Shown: positions 8,979-26,528 of the stretch, in pieces
Layout of the letters: every line of letters begins with the position of its first letter
How positions within the stretch are numbered: position 1 is the first letter of the stretch
DNA from: a virus
Reading direction: 5' to 3' (one strand)
IMG/VR virus record: IMGVR_UViG_3300030103_001184
Coordinates: 1-26,600 of that record
Length of the DNA stretch: 26,600 bases
Notes under the pieces: model-generated
Told to the model about the DNA's origin: nothing
Seen by the model: the letters and a program-made list of their open reading frames with translations, nothing else
Databases searched by the model: none
Program-made: the position numbers and the translations under genes

Positions 8979-9111
8979 CGGTTTTGCCGTTTGATATTTG
9001 TAATCCACACACGTTGCAAATTGTTATATCTTTACTATAGTCCACAGCGCTTTTGCACTTGGGGCATAGACCTGCCTCTATGAGCCTTTGCATTTCGCCT
9101 TTCTCCCTCAT
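8950..9111 (-). CDS. Small zinc-ribbon protein, 53 aa
   Basis: This short minus-strand gene starts at 9111 in an ATGA overlap with the stop of the ribbon-helix-helix gene, a strong sign of translational coupling. The protein has two CxxC knuckles, C16/C19 in LCPKCKS and C32/C35 in ICNVCGL, 12 residues apart, the pattern of a zinc ribbon. Its 3' end overlaps the last 29 bases of the lysozyme gene on the other strand. Zinc ribbons of this size bind nucleic acid or act as protein adaptors, so a partner or co-regulator for the RHH protein is plausible. Function not established. Confidence 0.65.
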   Translation of the reverse strand: MREKGEMQRLIEAGLCPKCKSAVDYSKDITICNVCGLQISNGKTVNQPAPSSV

Positions 9112-9287
9112 GCGGCTGAACCAATACCAGAATTAACTTCATTGCCATAACGCTCCTGATAAGAGTCAGAAACAAGTTTTGTAATTTGTTGTGATATTTT
9201 GCGATGATCGTCTGTAGCCAGTTTTGCAAGTTTCTTATGTGTCGCAAGATCTACAGCAACTGACTTGTATTGTTTTGTATCAGTCAT
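9108..9287 (-). CDS. Ribbon-helix-helix (Arc/CopG-like) DNA-binding protein, 59 aa
   Basis: The chosen start (MTDTKQYKS) has GGGAG seven bases upstream; an in-frame ATG eight codons earlier lacks one. Residues 7-43 fit an RHH fold: a beta strand (YKSVAVD), then helix A (LATHKKLAKLATDD), a turn (HRKIS) and helix B (QQITKLVSDSYQE). RHH proteins dimerise and bind DNA through the strand pair, usually as repressors. It is divergent from the nuclease gene at 9330, with a 42-bp gap, and coupled to a zinc-ribbon gene. These are the only minus-strand genes here, which fits an early or autonomous regulator. Target unknown. Confidence 0.75.
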   Translation of the reverse strand: MTDTKQYKSVAVDLATHKKLAKLATDDHRKISQQITKLVSDSYQERYGNEVNSGIGSAA

Positions 9288-9329
9288 TATAATACTCCCA
9301 TAAATTAACAACTATAGACATATATTAGC

Positions 9330-9772: not shown

Positions 9773-10204
9773 ATGAACGCTATTACTTTGAATAATGATC
9801 TGACTGCTTTGTTTAACAAGCGCGAAGATCTCAAATCTAAAATTGATGATCTGCAAAAAGAATTGAAGATCGTTAATAACTCCCTCAAAGATCAGTTTGA
9901 AGAGACTGCCAAGATGCAGCTTGCTCAAGACGGCAAGGATTTTGGTCAGACTACAATGAACAATGGTGACTTCAAAGTTACCGTTGATTTTCGTAAGAAG
10001 GTCTTATGGGATGAGACTATTCTGTTGCGTGTTCTTAATTCTTTGGATGAGGATACAGCAAAGCATCTGGCTACGGTCAAATACACTGTACCTGAAGCAA
10101 AGTTTCAGAATGCCACACCAGATCTTAAAGCAGCACTGTCTGAGGCTCGTACCGTTGAGTTGCAGGGCGTGTCTGTTGATATAAAAAGAAGAGAGGAAGG
10201 TTAA
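9773..10204 (+). CDS. Coiled-coil protein upstream of the Sak4-like ATPase, 143 aa
   Basis: The start at 9773 (MNAITLNND) has AAAGGAAAA just upstream and lies 43 bases after the promoter -10; the longer frame back to 9707 would include promoter DNA. Residues ~12-45 form a charged helix, FNKREDLKSKIDDLQKELKI, very likely coiled coil. The rest is a mixed domain (NNGDFKVTVDFRKKVLWDE; HLATVKYTVPEAKFQN). Small proteins of this kind are frequent just before Sak4-type ATPases in phage recombination operons. Function unknown; an accessory factor for DNA annealing or loading is possible. The stop overlaps the next ATG (TAATG). Confidence 0.75.
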   Translation: MNAITLNNDLTALFNKREDLKSKIDDLQKELKIVNNSLKDQFEETAKMQLAQDGKDFGQTTMNNGDFKVTVDFRKKVLWDETILLRVLNSLDEDTAKHLATVKYTVPEAKFQNATPDLKAALSEARTVELQGVSVDIKRREEG

Positions 10205-11067
10205 TGCTTAAAATAATTACAGCAGAAGAAAGGCTTGCCGAAAAGCGCGGTCACAAGATCGTAATTGGTGGAAAGTCAGGGGTGGGCAAGACGAGTCTTG
10301 TCCGCACCCTTGATATGGACAAAACATTATTCATGGACTTGGAAGCTGGTGATGCCGCTATCGAAGGATGTAAAGTTGATGTGATTAGACCGCGCACTTG
10401 GCAAGAGTGTAGAGACTTTGCATGCTTTCTTGGCGGTGGCAATCCTGCAATAACAGATGACTCTCCATATTCAATGACACACTATGACGGAGTTTGTCAG
10501 GTTTATGGTGATCCCACTCCAGTTCTTGAGAAATACGATACTATTTTTATTGATAGTATTACAGTCGCAGGTCGGCTTTGTTTTTCATATAATCAAAACT
10601 CACCAGAGAACAGATCAGATCGTTCAGGCAAGTTAGACACTCGTGCGGTTTATGGCGCTCAAGGTCGTGAGATGATGGCATGGTTAACACACCTTCAGCA
10701 TATTCGTGACAAGAACGTAATTTTTGTCGGCATTTTAGACGAAAAGACGGATGACTATGGACGCATCACTTACGACTTGCAGATTGAGGGTGCAAAGACT
10801 GGGCGTGAGTTGCCCGGAATTGTGGATGAACTAATCACGATGACAACACTTACGGCGGATGATGGCACATTATTCAGAGCCTTTGTCTGCGACACACTAA
10901 ACCAGTGGGGCTATCCCGCTAAAGATAGAAGCGGCAGACTTGAAGCTATTGAAGAGCCGCATCTTGGCAAACTCTTTGAAAAAATGTCTGGTCCAAGGCC
11001 AGAAGCAATGCAGTTTGTAAATCCCAAAACGGTCAATAACACAGAAGAGGAAAACGTAGATGCTTGA
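10204..11067 (+). CDS. Sak4-like RecA-core ATPase (single-strand annealing recombinase), 287 aa
   Basis: A P-loop ATPase with Walker A GKSGVGKT at residues 23-30 and Walker B IFIDS around 114-118. LFMDLEAGD follows the first strand, and GAKTGRELPGIVDE near residue 200 is typical of the phage AAA_24/Sak4 group. These are small RecA-fold proteins that, with an SSB-like partner, promote annealing of single-stranded DNA. The partner here is the next gene (DUF669), overlapped by 8 bases. The set of coiled-coil protein, Sak4-like ATPase, DUF669, helicase and Cas4-like nuclease forms a recombination/replication operon. Assignment as Sak4 rather than another AAA_24 ATPase is by motif and context. Confidence 0.85.
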   Translation: MLKIITAEERLAEKRGHKIVIGGKSGVGKTSLVRTLDMDKTLFMDLEAGDAAIEGCKVDVIRPRTWQECRDFACFLGGGNPAITDDSPYSMTHYDGVCQVYGDPTPVLEKYDTIFIDSITVAGRLCFSYNQNSPENRSDRSGKLDTRAVYGAQGREMMAWLTHLQHIRDKNVIFVGILDEKTDDYGRITYDLQIEGAKTGRELPGIVDELITMTTLTADDGTLFRAFVCDTLNQWGYPAKDRSGRLEAIEEPHLGKLFEKMSGPRPEAMQFVNPKTVNNTEEENVDA

Positions 11068-11689
11068 TCTAAATAACGTACCGCCAAACGAGGGCGGAAA
11101 CTTTGAACTTATACCTGACGGCACTGTCGTTAATGCTATCATTAAACTGGAAGGTGGAAATCTGGAGATTCCCGAATATGGTGCTGGCACCTTCTTTAAG
11201 CAGTCTCTAACCACCAGCGCAAAATGGTTACCGATTGAGTTTACCATAGTGGGCGGTAACTTTGATAAATGCACATTTAAACAGAACGTCTTTGTTGATG
11301 GCGATGCTAAAGATGAGAATGGCATGTCCAAAGCCCGAAAGATTGGTTTAAATCGCATTAAGGATATGGTCGATAGTGGGTTTGGTATTTCGCCAAAAGA
11401 TGAAAGCGATGACGCTAGAGCAAAACGTGCTTCCATTCAAGGTATCCACATGATCAATGGTATGATCATATGCTGCACTTTAGGAATTGAAAAAGGCAGT
11501 AATGGGTATGCTGATCGTAACAAGATCAAAACGGTCTTGACACCAGACTCGCCTAATTATATTCAGAGTGGAGGACAAGCTGCACCTGTCACGCAAGCGC
11601 CTGTAGCGCAAGCACCAGTTGCACAAGCACCAGTGGCTCAACCGCAACAAACTGTACAAGCGGGGGTAGCACCATCATGGGCGCGTTAG
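11060..11689 (+). CDS. DUF669 single-stranded-DNA-binding-like protein, 209 aa
   Basis: The N-terminal ~150 residues fit DUF669: LIPDGTVVNAIIKLEGG, then FKQSLTTSAKWLPIEFTIVG, and a helix SKARKIGLNRIKDMVDSGFG. DUF669 proteins are small phage proteins found beside Sak4-type ATPases and probably bind single-stranded DNA. The C-terminal tail is low complexity, with four tandem APV(A/T)Q units and a short basic ending (PSWAR) rather than the acidic tip of bacterial SSB. The start overlaps the ATPase gene by 8 bases; the end overlaps the next gene by 13. Confidence 0.85.
   Translation: MLDLNNVPPNEGGNFELIPDGTVVNAIIKLEGGNLEIPEYGAGTFFKQSLTTSAKWLPIEFTIVGGNFDKCTFKQNVFVDGDAKDENGMSKARKIGLNRIKDMVDSGFGISPKDESDDARAKRASIQGIHMINGMIICCTLGIEKGSNGYADRNKIKTVLTPDSPNYIQSGGQAAPVTQAPVAQAPVAQAPVAQPQQTVQAGVAPSWAR
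11582..11641 (+). repeat. Four 15-bp tandem repeats coding APVTQ/APVAQ
   Basis: Four in-frame 15-bp units (11582-11596, 11597-11611, 11612-11626, 11627-11641) encode APVTQ once and APVAQ three times in the DUF669 tail. The codons differ between units, so the repeat is kept at protein level rather than being a fresh DNA duplication. Confidence 0.85.
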
Positions 11690-12027
11690 AGAGACTCTGG
11701 GCATTTATTAGCGGCAAACCTTCAGAGGTCGCTAGATCCAGTAAGGGGGGCGCTGGAGCCGTAAAGCCCCCCATCATCGACACTAAGTTTGAAGATGGCA
11801 TTCCGCCATATATGACTTTTCCTATTGATGACGTTCCTAAATTCGCACAAAACACACTCAAGATGATTTCTCGTAAAAAAGGAGCAACAGTTGATGAAAT
11901 TCATGCGGTCATTGGGAATAAGAGGGCATCTGTTTATAATCATATCTACCTGATCAAAAAGGCTGGCTATGAGATTGTGAAAACCTACGATAAAAACTTA
12001 GGCAATCACAGGTATAGACTAGGCTAG
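11677..12027 (+). CDS. Winged-helix/HTH protein, 116 aa
   Basis: The start overlaps the DUF669 gene by 13 bases. The first ~50 residues are variable. Residues ~57-115 read like a winged helix: a helix (FAQNTLKMISRKKG), ATVDEIHAVIG, the recognition helix NKRASVYNHIYLIKKAG, and a wing YEIVKTYDKNLGNHRYRLG. Such domains bind DNA in replication initiators and regulators. Lying between DUF669 and the helicase, it may serve as an origin- or helicase-loading factor or a local regulator. This is inferred from position only. Confidence 0.65.
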   Translation: MGALERLWAFISGKPSEVARSSKGGAGAVKPPIIDTKFEDGIPPYMTFPIDDVPKFAQNTLKMISRKKGATVDEIHAVIGNKRASVYNHIYLIKKAGYEIVKTYDKNLGNHRYRLG

Positions 12028-13995: not shown

Positions 13996-14201
13996 AACAA
14001 GTAGGAGAATTGTTCGGGAATATTGGCTGGGAAAAGCGATTATGTGACTTAAACGAGGAAGAAGTGTTAGCTATAACACTAATCCTAAAACGAATATCAG
14101 AAGGGCTTGATGATGAATACTCTAGCACAAACCTTACAGAAATTTACTTCCGATACGGAGGCGGCAGAATTGGCCTCACAGAATCGGACATCCCTTTCTG
14201 A
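13959..14201 (+). CDS. Hypothetical protein, 80 aa
   Basis: The start is set by AAAGGAGGT eight bases before the ATG at 13959 (MDQGRGIRD); the frame is open further upstream but without a ribosome site. The protein has a helical core (LNEEEVLAITLILKRISEGL) and ends with NLTEIYFRYGGGRIGLTESD. It overlaps both neighbours. AATTGTTC at 14008 falls in codons for Glu-Leu-Phe. No family recognised. Confidence 0.65.
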   Translation: MDQGRGIRDSSLKQVGELFGNIGWEKRLCDLNEEEVLAITLILKRISEGLDDEYSSTNLTEIYFRYGGGRIGLTESDIPF

Positions 14202-21008: not shown

Positions 21009-21174
21009 AACAGGAAATTATGTTACTGGCGCAGGTTTCATACTTGTGCTGCTGATGTCAGCAGTCGAGCCTATGCCACATAGCTTTGAATTGTTCTGGT
21101 TGCATGTCGGACTGCTGATGATCGGAGCAGTGCTTATGGGTTCGGGAACATACCTTACATGGAAAGGAAAATAG
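20998..21174 (+). CDS. Two-helix membrane protein, 58 aa
   Basis: The start at 20998 (MGFKTGNYV) has AAGGAAGAG at good spacing; the longer upstream frame reads through the previous gene. Two hydrophobic helices are clear: residues ~11-26 (GAGFILVLLMSAVE) and ~34-54 (LFWLHVGLLMIGAVLMGSGTYL), followed by a basic tail (TWKGK). It would sit in the inner membrane. A holin or superinfection-exclusion role is possible; it is the only small membrane protein in the window, yet it is 12 kb from the lysozyme. Confidence 0.65.
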   Translation: MGFKTGNYVTGAGFILVLLMSAVEPMPHSFELFWLHVGLLMIGAVLMGSGTYLTWKGK

Positions 21175-21175
21175 A

Positions 21176-21613: not shown

Positions 21614-21672
21614 TGTAACGTGTGGTTGCTGCCAAATGCAACCCGAAGAATTGTTCTACTTAGGAGGGCGTA

Positions 21673-22250: not shown

Positions 22251-22371
22251 TCGGGCTTTTCGGGCTTGTACCAGTAGAATTGTTCGGGTTCGGGGTCCTC
22301 GGGGTTCTGCTCGGGACATCGGGATCGGGGTTTGATCGGGATCGGGCTTGACATCGGGGTTGCATCGGGGT
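22251..22371 (+). repeat. TCGGG array with G-quadruplex potential; contains an AATTGTTC element
   Basis: TCGGG occurs 12 times in about 120 bp, mostly as (A/T)TCGGG(G/A). The segment 22321-22346 has four runs of three or more G separated by ATC, TTTGATC and ATC, which fits the usual G-quadruplex rule. AATTGTTC (22278-22285) is embedded, within a degenerate copy of the 22-bp palindrome (22269-22290, 7 of 11 pairs). Confidence 0.7.
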
Positions 22372-22404
22372 CATTCTAAGACTCCTCCCTTAGAAGAACT
22401 GCCT

Positions 22405-22432
22405 CGGTAGCCACGCGCTGCCGGGGTTTTTT
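22405..22432 (+). terminator. Rho-independent terminator, junction A
   Basis: CGGTAGC (22405-22411) pairs with GCTGCCG (22417-22423), one G-U pair, over the loop CACGC, followed by GGG and six T (22427-22432). It would stop transcripts leaving terS, 205 bases downstream of its stop codon. Confidence 0.6.
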
Positions 22433-22438
22433 CTTCGG

Positions 22439-22460
22439 AACCCGTACAATTGTTCGGGAT
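22439..22460 (+). promoter_or_regulatory. 22-bp AATTGTTC palindrome, junction A
   Basis: The half AACCCGTACAA meets its near-complement TTGTTCGGGAT; 9 of 11 pairs match around the centre. It begins 7 nt after the terminator. Same element as at 23030, 24042 and 25652. Confidence 0.65.
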
Positions 22461-22464
22461 CGGG

Positions 22465-22517
22465 GCTGCGACCTCCTCGGAGGAAATCCTCCCGGCGTTC
22501 GGACTCCGGGTCGCAGC
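22465..22517 (+). other. Candidate structured RNA block between two palindromes
   Basis: GCTGCGACC (22465-22473) is perfectly complementary to GGTCGCAGC (22509-22517). Inside are a small hairpin TCCT-CGG-AGGA (22474-22484) and a CCCGG/CCGGG pair (22491-22495 with 22506-22510) that partly competes with the outer stem. This could fold into a branched RNA or a DNA cruciform. No known RNA family recognised. Confidence 0.45.
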
Positions 22518-22536
22518 ACCCTCCCGGTCTTCGATT

Positions 22537-22558
22537 CATTAGTACAATTGTTCGTGTT
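22537..22558 (+). promoter_or_regulatory. Degenerate AATTGTTC palindrome
   Basis: The core GTACAATTGTTC is intact (22542-22553) but the outer arms have decayed; 6 of 11 pairs match. It lies ~70 bp before the junction A promoter. Confidence 0.5.
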
Positions 22559-22628
22559 GTCTTCCCGGTCCCAGTTGGCTGCGGTTTTGTACCAAATGAT
22601 ACTTTTTTTATTTTTTTGTTTTTTGTGC

Positions 22629-22657
22629 TTGACCCTGGTCGCAATGATTGCTATATA
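22629..22657 (+). promoter_or_regulatory. Promoter with GCAA-NNN-TTGC operator, junction A
   Basis: TTGACC (22629-22634), a 17-nt spacer and TATATA (22652-22657). The palindrome GCAATGATTGC (22641-22651) fills the 3' part of the spacer and abuts the -10, an ideal place for a repressor. A T-rich tract precedes the -35. Confidence 0.72.
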
Positions 22658-22709
22658 TGATGAGTAAGCCAAAAGTATAACGCCGTTAGGTGATTGTAAT
22701 CGTGGCTAG

Positions 22710-22748
22710 GCCAGTGAGATGGGTTAATGGGTTATCCCGCTCACTGGC
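22710..22748 (+). other. Leader stem-loop upstream of the 59-aa gene
   Basis: GCCAGTGAG (22710-22718) pairs perfectly with CTCACTGGC (22740-22748); an inner GGG/CCC pair is possible. It lies inside the ~105-nt leader made from the promoter at 22629 and ends 9 nt before the AAAAAGGAGGG ribosome site. It could protect the message or control translation. Confidence 0.55.
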
Positions 22749-22770
22749 TGCACTTAAAAAGGAGGGCAAA

Positions 22771-22950
22771 ATGCCAACAGGAATCACAGACGAGAACATT
22801 CATTACTGGCCTTCTTCGCATGGGGAACTAATGGTTAGCATTGAGGATACAAAAACATTGATGTCATTTAAGACTCTGGATGATGCAATAAATTGGCTTT
22901 ACTTAAAAGGCTTTAAGAAAAGCGCAAGACAAATACACGGGGACTGGTAA
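22771..22950 (+). CDS. Hypothetical protein, 59 aa (cassette A)
   Basis: AAAAAGGAGGGCAAA precedes the ATG at 22771, which sets this start; the frame is open upstream through the leader but without a ribosome site. The protein reads MPTGITDENIHYWPSSHGEL, then strands (MVSIEDTKTLMSF) and a helix (TLDDAINWLYLKGFKKSARQ). It may be a small alpha/beta fold. It is a single-gene transcription unit with its own promoter and terminator, typical of an accessory ('moron'-like) gene. No family recognised. Confidence 0.75.
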   Translation: MPTGITDENIHYWPSSHGELMVSIEDTKTLMSFKTLDDAINWLYLKGFKKSARQIHGDW

Positions 22951-22979
22951 GAGGCAACCCGTAAAGTTTTCATTACCTG

Positions 22980-23005
22980 ACCCGGCGAGAGCCGGGTATT
23001 TTTTT
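22980..23005 (+). terminator. Strong rho-independent terminator, junction B
   Basis: ACCCGGC (22980-22986) and GCCGGGT (22991-22997) form a 7-bp GC-rich stem with a GAGA tetraloop, followed by A and seven T (22999-23005). It ends the 59-aa gene's transcript. Confidence 0.92.
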
Positions 23006-23029
23006 GTCCGTGCTGCGTCCTCCGGCGCT

Positions 23030-23051
23030 AACCAGTACAATTGTTCTGGTT
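23030..23051 (+). promoter_or_regulatory. 22-bp AATTGTTC palindrome, junction B (best copy)
   Basis: AACCAGTACAA followed by TTGTTCTGGTT; 10 of 11 pairs match, the only mismatch being T/T at the fifth base from the centre. It lies 25 nt after the terminator. Confidence 0.75.
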
Positions 23052-23113
23052 GTTCCCCGGCGCTGCTGACTGGCACCCGTTGAAAAAAAATTCTTTTTTT
23101 CTTTCTTTTCCTG

Positions 23114-23142
23114 TTGACAGTGTGTGCAATGATTGCTATGTA
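23114..23142 (+). promoter_or_regulatory. Promoter with GCAA-NNN-TTGC operator, junction B
   Basis: Consensus TTGACA (23114-23119), a 17-nt spacer and TATGTA (23137-23142; TATATA four bases later). GCAATGATTGC (23126-23136) is identical to the copy at 22641 and at the same distance from both boxes. An A/T-rich tract precedes it. Confidence 0.8.
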
Positions 23143-23169
23143 TATAAGTACAGAAGGAGGGCAAACGCC

Positions 23170-23541
23170 ATGACTAAAGTTCATCATACAGTGTATAAGA
23201 AAAATTATCGTGAATATATTTTAGATCACATCGATCAAGACCACGATGGTAATCAACTAAGCTCAGACAAAGAAAAGATCAAATTTTTATTTGATCGTTT
23301 CAATTCTGAATATGGATGGAACATACAAAGAGTAGGCAAGAGAAAAGCTATGATTGAATGGCTTTCTGGAGTGGCTATTAGCTTTGCTATCTATAACAAT
23401 GAAATAATAGATTTAGCCATTCGCATGGGTTCAATTGATGAGAACCCAGATGATCGTTTGGTTGATCGTGTTTTAGATAATTATTTTCCGTTTATGGCTA
23501 ATATTATTCTAGGCATGGAATCAGAACTGGAGGTAAAATGA
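23170..23541 (+). CDS. Conserved phage protein of unknown function, 123 aa (cassette B)
   Basis: AAGGAGGG precedes the ATG at 23170, about 30 bases after the promoter. The pattern YREYILDHIDQDHDG, DKEKIKFLFDRFNSEYGW, KRKAMIEWLSGVAISFAIYN and VDRVLDNYFPFMANIIL matches a helical protein I recall from many unrelated phages and plasmids, with no known function. The mix of acidic helix and conserved 'EYGW...WLsGlai' suggests a compact single domain. It overlaps the next gene by an ATGA, so the two are co-translated. Confidence 0.8.
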   Translation: MTKVHHTVYKKNYREYILDHIDQDHDGNQLSSDKEKIKFLFDRFNSEYGWNIQRVGKRKAMIEWLSGVAISFAIYNNEIIDLAIRMGSIDENPDDRLVDRVLDNYFPFMANIILGMESELEVK

Positions 23542-23963
23542 GTAGACTATATTTCGCCTATGGCTCAAACTTGAACAAAAGCCAGATGGCATTTCGTAGC
23601 CCCACCGCGAAAGCGTTGGGATCTGCGTATTTTGTCGGGTGGCAGTTGGTCTTTCGGGGCGTAGCTGACATAGAACGAGGAGATGATGACAGCTTGCTTC
23701 CTGTAGGCATCTGGCGCATTGAAGAAGCAGACGAGGCCGCACTTGATAGATACGAGGGTGTGAGTTCTGGACTTTATCGCAAGGTGGAGATCAACGGGAT
23801 GCTAACCTATCGGATGAATAGATACTCTTACGCTAGACCATCTGCTGAATACTTTACCACAATCCTGAACGGGTATCGGGACTTTGGGCTTGATGAGTCG
23901 GAATTGTACAATGCGCGGGATGAATCGACATTTCGTGAGGAGGAACAGCGGATATGGATATAA
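23538..23963 (+). CDS. Gamma-glutamylcyclotransferase / AIG2-like protein, 141 aa
   Basis: The family signature is plain: the substrate loop FAYGSNL (6-12), catalytic glutamate E73 in RYEGV, GLYRK (78-82), and EYFTTILNGYRDFGL (104-118). GGCT-fold enzymes cyclise a gamma-glutamyl group to 5-oxoproline and release the amine. Phage copies are common but poorly studied. It is translationally coupled to the 123-aa gene and is followed, in the next transcription unit, by an amidoligase, an enzyme class that makes the kind of bond GGCTs cleave. It may reverse a modification, or process a gamma-glutamyl metabolite. The stop codon runs into AATTGTTC (23963-23970). Confidence 0.88.
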   Translation: MSRLYFAYGSNLNKSQMAFRSPTAKALGSAYFVGWQLVFRGVADIERGDDDSLLPVGIWRIEEADEAALDRYEGVSSGLYRKVEINGMLTYRMNRYSYARPSAEYFTTILNGYRDFGLDESELYNARDESTFREEEQRIWI

Positions 23964-23979
23964 ATTGTTCGGGTTATTT

Positions 23980-24014
23980 TGGGCCGTGGCCGGGCGCTGC
24001 GGCCCATTTTTTTT
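23980..24014 (+). terminator. Rho-independent terminator, junction C
   Basis: TGGGCCG (23980-23986) pairs with CGGCCCA (24000-24006); the 13-nt interior is GC-rich and eight T follow (24007-24014). It ends the GGCT transcript. Confidence 0.85.
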
Positions 24015-24041
24015 GCCCAATCACGGGCAGCGCGGGGCCAT

Positions 24042-24063
24042 AACCTGTACAATTGTTCGGGTT
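24042..24063 (+). promoter_or_regulatory. 22-bp AATTGTTC palindrome, junction C
   Basis: AACCTGTACAA followed by TTGTTCGGGTT; 9 of 11 pairs match and a tenth is a T/G wobble. It lies 28 nt after the terminator. Confidence 0.72.
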
Positions 24064-24076
24064 ATTGAGTCGAGAC

Positions 24077-24129
24077 TCGGGCAGCACCGGGCTGAATCGG
24101 ATCGGGGATCGGGGCATCGGGCATCGGGG
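24077..24129 (+). repeat. TCGGG array with canonical G-quadruplex motif
   Basis: Within 24104-24129 four G-runs (4, 4, 3 and 4 G) are separated by ATC, CATC and CATC, a textbook quadruplex pattern on the + strand. The unit ATCGGG(G) is the same as in the array after terS. Confidence 0.7.
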
Positions 24130-24231
24130 TTAGCTGCTGCTGCTGGTTACGATCTTCCTTTCTTTCACGCGCACGCACACCCGCCCTCCCGATCAATAAT
24201 TAAAAAAATACGAACAATTGCTCTTTTTGTG

Positions 24232-24261
24232 TTTACATACGCAATGTTTGCATGCTAGTTT
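24232..24261 (+). promoter_or_regulatory. Promoter with GCAA-NNN-TTGC operator, junction C
   Basis: TTTACA (24232-24237), an 18-nt spacer and a weak TAGTTT (24256-24261). GCAATGTTTGC (24241-24251) lies in the spacer. The sequence from TTGCATGC onwards resembles the replication-operon promoter at 9702. Confidence 0.6.
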
Positions 24262-24306
24262 TCAGAAGTGGCGCAAACGTGCGTCTACAAAAACAGAAAA
24301 AAGGTA

Positions 24307-25587
24307 ATGAAAACAATGCTTTATTTTACAGATGGATCAAAAATGACTGGTGGCTGTGAATGGGAACTAGCCCACAAGCCGAATTCTGACTGCTCTGGAT
24401 GGGGTGTTTATGAGTGGAAAAACGCTATCCGTAACGCTGGATTTAGTTGGATCAGAGTGGAAAGCGACGGGTCTTACAATGTGAAAGTTGAGTTGGTTTC
24501 ACCGGCTTTCCTATTGCCTCTTGATGGTCAAGCTTATGCTGACATTAAAGCCTTACTTGAATTTGTTGAAAGTAAAGGTGGCAAGATTAAAAAAGGTTGT
24601 GGGTTGCATGCTAACATAGGAACAAGGCTTGTGACTGGCATTACGGCAGATGAATTCTGGAATGCAAGCAAACTTGCCATGTCAAATTCAGATAGTTTTT
24701 ATAGGCCAGACGCTATCAACTTATCTGATGCAATGCCAATTGAGTTGGTGAAAGATGTTATCAAACGTTATGCAATCCATCATGACGATGTAGATAGTTT
24801 ACTTGCACCGTCCAGACGTTGTGAGAGTAGTGGCATCTTTTCTTATCCTGCACCGTCTGATCATTGGCCACAAGATAACGACAACCAGTCTTATTTCTGC
24901 CACAGCATCCGCCGCATTGCTGGTGTGATGGAAAGTCGTTTTGATGCCTGCACCACAGAATATGAGGTGGCAGAAACCCTAAAGGCTTGCCAAACTTTAT
25001 ACCGCTCACAGCATGCCAAATTTGCCGCTATCAATATGGGTCATTTTGGTTCTGGCCGAATTGAGTTTAGACAACACCAAGGCACGTTAAACGTCAAAAA
25101 GACTGCCGCATGGTTAAAGCTTATTGAACAAATGTTCCGCTATTCGCATGACGCAAGAGTTGCGTATGTTCCAGAACATCAAGTTACCAATGGAACACCC
25201 ACCGCACCATACCGTGCAGGATCAAGAATTGCTGTTATGTGGGATATAATTAGACGCGATGGTGGTGCGACTACACAACAAATTAGCAGTGTTACCGGAT
25301 GGGATGCTGGCACCATCCGCGCTAGAATTTCAGAAATGAGAGCGCAACATGGGCAGGACAATATTCGTTGTCATACTCAACAACGCTATGGCAACGCCTA
25401 TGGTACTAGCCAAGGCAATCATGATCTAAATGGATATGAGGCAATTCAAGGTGAGGTTGTCACCATTCCTGCAAAGTGGGAATTATTGCCAGCCAATAGA
25501 ATTGGTGTAACTAGCATATTTGCAGGGCTGGATGATCAGACATTTGAATACTTAATGGAAAGACGATCTGATTTTAGGCAAAACTAG
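24307..25587 (+). CDS. Amidoligase (glutamine-synthetase-like ligase) with C-terminal helix-turn-helix, 426 aa
   Basis: The N-terminal ~290 residues match the putative amidoligase family (COOH-NH2 ligases): GGCEWEL (15-21) with E18/E20, VESDGS (51-56), VELVSP (61-66), CGLHANIG (98-105) and IEFRQHQGTLN (252-262). These enzymes use ATP to join a carboxyl and an amine. Residues ~306-350 form an HTH: AVMWDIIRRDGGATTQQISS followed by TGWDAGTIRARISEM; a further ~75 residues follow. This ligase-HTH fusion is unusual. AAAAAAGG precedes ATGs at 24307 and 24316; spacing is short for the first and long for the second, so the start may be nine bases later. A gamma-glutamylcyclotransferase lies just upstream, suggesting linked chemistry. 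Substrate unknown. Confidence 0.85.
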   Translation: MKTMLYFTDGSKMTGGCEWELAHKPNSDCSGWGVYEWKNAIRNAGFSWIRVESDGSYNVKVELVSPAFLLPLDGQAYADIKALLEFVESKGGKIKKGCGLHANIGTRLVTGITADEFWNASKLAMSNSDSFYRPDAINLSDAMPIELVKDVIKRYAIHHDDVDSLLAPSRRCESSGIFSYPAPSDHWPQDNDNQSYFCHSIRRIAGVMESRFDACTTEYEVAETLKACQTLYRSQHAKFAAINMGHFGSGRIEFRQHQGTLNVKKTAAWLKLIEQMFRYSHDARVAYVPEHQVTNGTPTAPYRAGSRIAVMWDIIRRDGGATTQQISSVTGWDAGTIRARISEMRAQHGQDNIRCHTQQRYGNAYGTSQGNHDLNGYEAIQGEVVTIPAKWELLPANRIGVTSIFAGLDDQTFEYLMERRSDFRQN

Positions 25588-25607
25588 CCAAACATAAAAA
25601 CGCGATT

Positions 25608-25636
25608 AGAGGCGCTTGCAGCGCCTCTTTTTTTTT
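25608..25636 (+). terminator. Strong rho-independent terminator, junction D
   Basis: AGAGGCGC (25608-25615) pairs with GCGCCTCT (25621-25628) over TTGCA, followed by eight T (25629-25636). It ends the amidoligase transcript. Confidence 0.93.
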
Positions 25637-25651
25637 GCGGTAGGTTACCAG

Positions 25652-25673
25652 CAGCCGAACAATTGTACGGCAT
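25652..25673 (+). promoter_or_regulatory. 22-bp AATTGTTC palindrome, junction D (inverted orientation)
   Basis: The core CCGAACAATTGTACGG (25655-25670) is palindromic except for one A/A pair; 8 of 11 pairs match overall. AATTGTTC is on the minus strand here. It lies 16 nt after the terminator. Confidence 0.65.
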
Positions 25674-25698
25674 AGGTGCAGCTCTATGGGCGATTAAC

Positions 25699-25709
25699 GC
25701 AATGTTTGC
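25699..25709 (+). promoter_or_regulatory. Operator-like GCAATGTTTGC without a clear promoter
   Basis: Identical to the 11-bp palindrome at 24241, but no good -35 or -10 lies around it. It may be an auxiliary operator for the promoter 170 bp downstream, or the remains of an older promoter. Confidence 0.5.
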
Positions 25710-25869
25710 ATCTAAGGTACCCTATACCTTGGCAATATGTGGCAAAATCGGGGATGGGTGGGTATACCACCACCCCTAAAAAAAATTTTGACAGGGCGAA
25801 AGGTTGCGCCAACTTTCCCACAAACAACCCTCAAAAAATTTTAAAAAAAAATTTTACATCATATTTTCC

Positions 25870-25898
25870 TTGATTGTTTGCAATCTTTGCACTATGTT
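25870..25898 (+). promoter_or_regulatory. Promoter with GCAA-NNN-TTGC operator, junction D
   Basis: TTGATT (25870-25875), a 17-nt spacer and TATGTT (25893-25898). GCAATCTTTGC (25880-25890) lies in the spacer. It precedes AAAGGAGGGG and the gene pair at 25925 and 26163, which includes an XRE regulator. Confidence 0.68.
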
Positions 25899-25924
25899 AT
25901 GTGAAACAACTAAAGGAGGGGCAA

Positions 25925-26176
25925 ATGCCTAAGTTTTTATTAAAGATCAGCGAGGATCCAATTGAGTTTGAGGCTCCTAGTGCTGAAGGGTTTCTTGCTG
26001 CATGGAAGGACATCTTCTTCATGGCAGACCGGGAAGACAAAGATTGGATTCGTACAGCAGCTTCTGTTGCATGCGATTGGAGTGGCAAGTCTATCAGGTT
26101 CGATACTGTTGAGGCTTTTGCTGCCGACATGATTGACGCTGGTATGCTGGAGGAGGTAGAGGATGTACAAGGCTAA
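25925..26176 (+). CDS. Hypothetical acidic protein, 83 aa
   Basis: AAAGGAGGGG precedes the ATG at 25925; the frame is open upstream into the promoter but without a ribosome site. It begins with two strands (FLLKISEDPIEFEAPSAEGF), then a helix, and ends with an acidic tail (AFAADMIDAGMLEEVEDVQG). No family recognised. The next gene overlaps it by 14 bases, so the pair is co-translated. Confidence 0.7.
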   Translation: MPKFLLKISEDPIEFEAPSAEGFLAAWKDIFFMADREDKDWIRTAASVACDWSGKSIRFDTVEAFAADMIDAGMLEEVEDVQG

Positions 26177-26528
26177 AGAGTCCTACAGCATGTGGGATGG
26201 CAAGACGTTGGCAAAGAAACGTAAGCAACTTGATGTAACGCAGATGAACATGTCCCGGTCTTTGGGTGTGAGTCATCGAATGTATTGTTACTACGAAAGT
26301 GGTGAGCAGGAGATACCGCGTTCAATAGAGCTATCTGTGCGTTATATGGAGAATACAAAGGGTAATGACGTTTTGATGCCCACAGGTACTTTGAGTAACT
26401 TTGACAAGGATCGTATTGCTCGTTTGTGTAGTGCGTTGAATGGAATGGAGGGTACAGATGCTCATATAGACAAGGTTTTGAGGCAATCAAAGACCGAGTT
26501 AGAGTATCTGTTGTCAAAGTTTGAATAA
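26163..26528 (+). CDS. XRE-family (Cro/CI-type) HTH regulator, 121 aa
   Basis: Residues ~13-62 form a lambda-repressor-type five-helix HTH: WDGKTLAKKRKQLDVTQMNM followed by SRSLGVSHRMYCYYESGEQE and IPRSIELSVRYMEN. The remaining ~55 residues are helical (NFDKDRIARLCSALNG; HIDKVLRQSKTELEYLLSKF), probably a dimerisation tail, with no LexA-type autoprotease motif. It overlaps the preceding gene, and their shared promoter has a GCAA-NNN-TTGC palindrome inside it, so autoregulation through that site and control of the matching promoters is the simplest reading. This is inference. A second in-frame start at 26190 is possible. Confidence 0.8.
   Translation: MYKAKESYSMWDGKTLAKKRKQLDVTQMNMSRSLGVSHRMYCYYESGEQEIPRSIELSVRYMENTKGNDVLMPTGTLSNFDKDRIARLCSALNGMEGTDAHIDKVLRQSKTELEYLLSKFE

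Follow-up and report, generated by a model that had tools for sequence, protein, structure and literature searches.

A repeated block of terminator, operator-like site and promoter as a probable transcription-unit boundary and exchange point for accessory genes in an uncultured phage group

The PeSL promoter-terminator cassettes of T4-like phages (Arbiol 2010; Comeau 2014; both as cited in PMC4503421) are, as described there, repeated composites of a terminator and a promoter that occur in plastic regions and separate small accessory genes, and modular shuffling has been proposed for them. Morons, in lambdoid and other phages, are small accessory genes that have their own promoter and terminator and are inserted in the phage genome, but they are not known to have a single repeated boundary block in common. 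The stoperators of the cluster A mycobacteriophages are intergenic sites whose action depends on their orientation (PMC9283540). Here we analyze a 26.6 kb viral contig (IMG/VR record IMGVR_UViG_3300030103_001184, positions 1 to 26,600; "the window" below means this whole stretch), on which nearly every gene is on the plus strand, and in particular a block that recurs at four gene junctions in an accessory zone downstream of the TerS gene. Each of these four gaps contains a terminator (T), one or two sites that we call s (GWACAATTGTWC), an A/T-rich tract, and a promoter (P) with a GCAA-N3-TTGC box in its spacer.

Like a PeSL, this module is an intergenic composite of a promoter and a stem-loop terminator, it lies among small variable genes, and there is sequence evidence for gene shuffling between its copies. 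It differs in that PeSLs belong to T4-type phages with T4 early promoters, whereas the TerL protein here is HTVC023P-like and the promoters are sigma70-like; in addition it carries an oriented, operator-like s, the GCAA-N3-TTGC box within the promoter, and structured leaders after some of its copies. The best reading of the sequence is that the module would work like a PeSL without being one by descent, in a podovirus-like marine group unrelated to T4. The genes of the first two slots between modules also resemble morons, having their own promoter and terminator and being absent in close relatives, although the present group is not known to form prophages. A megablast search of the window against known phages gave no match; the named phages with the closest TerL (54–63% identity) are DSL-LC04, 023Pt_psg01 and the pelagiphages HTVC027P and HTVC023P. 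The HTVC023P-type pelagiphages, HTVC027P and DSL-LC04 share with the window an accessory zone between TerS and TerL, and in the three of the four named phages that were measured the genes of this zone are all similarly widely spaced; they differ in that none of the four genomes has an exact s. The TerS-TerL zones of HTVC027P, 023Pt_psg01 and DSL-LC04 contain other short-unit repeats.

We consider the block to be a composite transcription-unit boundary that is also an exchange point for accessory genes, with a probability of about two in three. Its parts, their order and conservation, the breakpoints outside genes and the fused modules described below are features of the sequence as we read it. 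The terminator would end the upstream unit; s would be bound by a protein, and may insulate the units or regulate read-through; and the T-tract and sigma70-like promoter would start the next unit, of one or two genes, the GCAA-N3-TTGC box in the −35/−10 spacer probably being a repressor operator for an Xre-type helix-turn-helix (HTH) protein. Because the promoter core, of about 45 bp, is near-identical from one module copy to the next, non-allelic copies could recombine, whether they lie in one genome or in two phages that infect the same cell, and such recombination would drop, add or swap the intervening gene and leave the expression signals intact. The candidate recombinase is a Sak4-like ssDNA annealing protein (10204–11067, plus strand; phrog_124, E 4e-42). 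A previous sequence-only reading of the contig had pointed to Sak4/DUF669; the PHROGs bear out Sak4, but its neighbour is not called DUF669 by Pfam.

All four junctions are present where that reading had placed them. The zone extends from the TerS stop codon (22200) to the HTH gene, with gaps of 570, 219, 343 and 337 bp between small transcription units, and its features, found on the plus strand unless noted, are as follows. In junction A an s variant (GTAGAATTGTTC, 22274–22285), which has an equivalent place in most relatives, follows the TerS stop and precedes terminator A (22401–22427, an 11-pair stem with a T-run); two exact s sites (GTACAATTGTTC) come next, A1 at 22444–22455 inside a 22-bp palindrome (22439–22460) and A2 at 22542–22553, and then the T-tract and promoter A (22603–22657; TTGACC-17-TATATA at 22629, with GCAATGATTGC at 22641–22651). 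Junction B has terminator B (22980–22997), s site B (23035–23046) inside a second 22-bp palindrome (23030–23051), and the T-tract and promoter B (23091–23142; TTGACA-17-TATGTA at 23114, with GCAATGATTGC at 23126–23136); the T-tracts and promoters of A and B are kept in relatives. In junction C, terminator C (23980–24006) is followed by an exact s (24047–24058), by a minus-strand variant with its conserved half reversed (CGAACAATTGCTC, 24212–24223) just 5' of the promoter, and by promoter C (24232–24261; TTTACA-18-TAGTTT, GCAATGTTTGC at 24241–24251). Junction D consists of terminator D (25608–25628), an exact s to which no strand was assigned (GAACAATTGTAC, 25657–25668), and promoter D (25870–25898; TTGATT-17-TATGTT, GCAATCTTTGC at 25880–25890). 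The palindrome reported earlier is thus exact at 22444, 23035, 24047 and 25657, and the copy at 22542 had been missed. TCGGG-rich short-period arrays adjoin s at 22286–22366 and 24079–24129, and hold all three of the G-quadruplex-like motifs of the window.

The terminators were located by a terminator scan, which finds eight terminator-like sites in the window against 6.3 in shuffled sequences; this count is not above chance, so the evidence for them is their recurring position in relatives. These relatives, about 100 distinct ones, were collected by searches with TerS and with the palindrome, and nearly all of them keep one module order, including a clade whose TerS is only about 50% identical. 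The full order, s-T-s-s-P-slot1-T-s-P-slot2-GGCT-(s)-T-s-(s)-P-amidoligase-T-s-P-g83-HTH (GGCT, gamma-glutamyl cyclotransferase; g83, a conserved 83-aa protein), recurs with different slot genes, the four-part module being found in order in about 60 relatives, and an s lies within 90 nt 3' of 148 of 214 terminators, where 68.8 would be expected from a uniform spread of s over intergenic DNA, so the recurring order claimed for the window holds in its relatives as well. The GCAA-N3-TTGC box is found 11 times in the window (1.26 expected), four times in module promoter spacers and otherwise elsewhere. In distant clades the box becomes GCAGTGATTGC or GTGTGGGATAATGTGGG, and s is unchanged.

The HTH gene (26163–26528, plus strand) lies in the last unit of the zone, and that unit's own promoter carries the GCAA-N3-TTGC box; given this co-occurrence we infer that its Xre/Cro-type product, assigned by alignment, may bind the box and is the candidate regulator of the module promoters. 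Its AlphaFold2 model has a predicted local distance difference test score (pLDDT) of 77 and is confident only in the HTH region (about 90). Foldseek searches with the model gave weak matches to Aca, controller-protein (C-protein) and P22 c2 folds, the best with E 0.007 and none at or below 0.001. The protein may be like the Aca-type autorepressors, as a small phage HTH protein of putative Xre type that possibly binds inverted repeats both in the promoters of accessory genes and in the promoter of its own unit; it differs in that the fold matches are weak only and no anti-CRISPR was identified.

Not all of the genes between the modules are equally exchangeable. Slot 1 is occupied in the window by a 59-aa gene (22771–22950, plus strand) with no Pfam or PHROG match, which is replaced or missing in relatives, and slot 2 by a 123-aa gene (23170–23541, plus strand; phrog_11100, function not known), in place of which relatives have other genes. 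At least seven gene families occupy slot 1 within the group whose TerS proteins are 95–100% identical, both slots vary or are missing, and some relatives have additional cassettes between the genes for GGCT and the amidoligase. On the other hand GGCT (23538–23963, plus strand; AIG2/GGACT), an amidoligase with a C-terminal DUF3489-like winged helix (24307–25587, plus strand), g83 (25925–26176, plus strand, 5' of the HTH gene) and the HTH gene form a syntenic block that is conserved in nearly all relatives. Only the small flanking slots turn over. GGCT and the amidoligase probably act together in modifying a peptide; in some relatives GGCT is 5' of TerS instead. The cassette families beginning MGTRAIY and MLTISNMTGKL (L218 12120–13905, and L015 and L076) are common to a second phage group, which has different promoters and no s.

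The s element is not confined to the cassettes. ACAATTGT occurs seven times in the window against 0.91 expected, a number that no shuffle reached, and further plus-strand sites occur elsewhere: an s-like site at 1788–1799, 5' of a tail gene that starts at 1822, where four relatives have an exact palindrome; forward half-sites at 14004–14015 (in the gap 13996–14106) and 21085–21096 (TTTGAATTGTTC, in the gap 21009–21175); and an s-like site at 21645–21656, 17 nt 5' of the TerS start. These sites, which include gaps in late operons, rule out s as a tag of cassettes only. In relatives s is found 17–23 nt 5' of TerS, 5' of the tail gene and just 3' of the major capsid gene; four of them have an s-like site directly 3' of the capsid stop codon (G001 46785, G003 34654, G004 29278, G005 41636), with a terminator and a promoter-like region beyond it. 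The full s site is enriched 58-fold between genes. Conversely, a sister lineage (L009–L015, TerS 97–98% identical) retains these terminators and GCAATGATTGC promoters but has no s at its cassettes, so that s and the terminator-promoter boundary are separable; its longer records retain s 5' of the tail gene, and one also 5' of TerS. This lineage comes part of the way to a case of the same genes without the palindromes, since it shares TerS and HTH but not GGCT and the amidoligase, both of which are also missing at that place in L009, where the contig is long enough. A lineage that lacks the amidoligase there and keeps s before TerS and the tail gene makes the amidoligase, with its DUF3489 winged helix, unlikely as the s-binding protein. 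A separate DUF3489 protein is encoded at 11677–12027.

Its many copies, intergenic placement and orientation with transcription give s a likeness to the stoperators. Its downstream half, AATTGTWC, is near-constant and its upstream half degenerate (57 one-mismatch deviations in the left half against 12 in the right), AATTGTTCG with a different left half is found 106 times on the plus strand and 17 times on the minus strand, and in eight long records the forward half-site occurs in 40 of 128 gaps, compared to 0.8 after shuffling, including gaps that precede TerS and the tail gene and gaps that follow the major capsid gene. These findings speak for the explanation that s binds a repressor, which would stop elongation, depending on the orientation of s, at unit boundaries genome-wide, the cassettes being one case of this. 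We hold this explanation to be possible but tentative, since no repressor, no evidence of lysogeny and, in the 12 records searched (mostly fragments), no integrase was found, since many s sites adjoin a terminator, where such a block seems redundant, and since s is near-palindromic (12–22 bp) and present in fewer copies, unlike the asymmetric L5-type sites. Stoperator-like insulation by s is plausible in itself. The more elaborate proposal, that s gives genome-wide, orientation-dependent insulation of this kind to most forward transcription units, that a separate Aca-like HTH protein controls the cassette promoters, and that the block joins both to a recombination point, seems to us unlikely in its entirety.

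Evidence that the modules are also where genes have been exchanged comes first from the edges of homology in a set of 19 close relatives. Although 57.5% of the region compared is gene interior, 1 of 524 left edges and 50 of 524 right edges fall there (when distinct edges are counted, 6 of 159 and 21 of 191, respectively); left edges concentrate at the promoter or start codon, and right edges 3' of the stop codon, ahead of the terminator. Gain and loss across relatives thus falls at the modules. The second line of evidence is from six relatives without a separate slot-1 cassette, whose single leftover module we compared with A-type and B-type modules. In L024, L156 and L016 this module joins an A-type left half to a B-type right half, and in L171 the arrangement is the reverse; two-parent fits give 185, 170, 174 and 183 matches, respectively, where the best same-type fits give 150, 147, 149 and 150, a gain of 23–35 matches for fused modules compared with mostly 0 and at most 8 for pure ones. 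The crossovers map to the T-tract, the −35 region or GCAATGATTGCTATA, outside the palindrome, and the exact stretches common to both parents there are 4–17 bp. A pattern scan found A-to-B fusions in four contigs from four metagenomes. With their crossovers in the promoter core, the fused modules support exchange with that core as the common homology. The suggestion that cassettes recombine at their boundary repeats is accordingly upheld as to exchange but not as to the palindrome, and turnover, edges and fused modules together agree with the block being a standard unit that gives accessory genes control of their own.

Several observations count against our interpretation. The relatives in the edge counts were compared in pairs that are not independent, and avoidance of gene interiors would also be expected under selection on random recombination. 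A fifth module, that of L083, is not clearly fused (162 versus 159 matches) and was dropped from the count. The fused modules could be ancestral empty sites that later received a cassette, although whether ancestral or derived their junction is in the promoter core. None of the four module promoters passes a strict sigma70 scan, which finds no excess of promoter matches, and C and D are weak, so that the promoters rest on conservation and position. Finally, the transcriptional effects, the binding proteins, the recombinase and the direction of events are all deduced from sequence.

Some of these points are those on which a selection-only explanation draws, the moron or semilegitimate-recombination view, according to which recombination occurs anywhere by short or no homology, only products with an intact promoter, gene and terminator survive, and the repeated block is a result of regulation and not a means of exchange. 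It accounts for breakpoints outside genes, for the shortness of the exact common stretches at the crossovers, and for the many slot genes that differ without any fused module. We find it rather doubtful as the whole explanation, because one crossover after another lies in the promoter core where the parents are alike, as homology-guided exchange predicts, and because both fusion polarities, A to B and B to A, are seen.

We regard it as very improbable that s serves as a LexA (SOS) box of the host or as an RNA hairpin. The LexA half-site of cyanobacteria and Gram-positive bacteria is GTAC/GAAC-N4-GTTC, which s resembles, but RGTACNNNDGTWCB fits only two s sites of the window, and s is 60–210 bp 5' of the promoters and overlaps none of them; we reject s as a LexA box on these grounds. 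Moreover, relatives with 71–76% identical TerL occur in metagenome-assembled genomes binned as Hellea, Maricaulis and Rhodobacteraceae, a weak hint of alphaproteobacterial hosts, and the alphaproteobacterial LexA box differs from the cyanobacterial and Gram-positive type. Among 239 distinct s sites the arms show no covariation and no excess pairing at variable positions, for which reason we reject an RNA hairpin or cruciform; as the arms vary independently, s is most simply taken to be a protein-binding DNA site. That the fused modules are metagenome assembly chimeras is scarcely credible, for although every relative is a metagenomic contig and the modules are repeats, the common stretches are shorter than usual assembly k-mers and the fusions are in contigs of different metagenomes with different downstream genes.

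Two kinds of leader RNA follow module promoters. The 59-aa slot-1 gene is preceded by a structured 5' leader (about 22655–22772, plus strand; fold z = −4.8 against shuffles), which by alignment is also present in L003, L006, L025 and L035. The second, different leader, directly 3' of cassette promoters in other relatives, is 66 nt long and has the form stem-GGUAGCGAUGACCGCCGACCAGUGAUGCGAACAGCACC-stem, with a near-invariant core and an outer stem with compensatory changes at four pairs. It precedes different genes (L027 2519–2584, L028 2344–2409, L042 3537–3601, L065 3913–3978, L079 12031–12097, L142 2572–2638, L171 888–953 and L218 12037–12103, among others), and occurs as well in a second phage group, one that has no s. 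No match to the leaders was found in Rfam, and a model of the 66-nt leader gave only weak matches (22–26 bits) in 190 genomes of one bacterial class, the four matches inspected being chance-like; this mobile leader is possibly a new riboswitch or attenuator. Apart from the zone, a 60-aa ribbon-helix-helix protein with a weak MatP_C match is a second candidate regulator; its gene (9108–9290, minus strand), the sole clear minus-strand gene of the window, is kept 3' of the lysozyme gene.

Abundant marine phages have many small unknown genes with rapid turnover, which can here be traced to a defined DNA block, and the fossil fusions mark where exchange took place. Promoter-terminator shuffling is in this way extended beyond the T4-like phages. 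The module gives a sequence handle for accessory genes of uncultured phages, possibly including counter-defence genes, and the oriented s raises a testable question about how transcription units are insulated in such phages.

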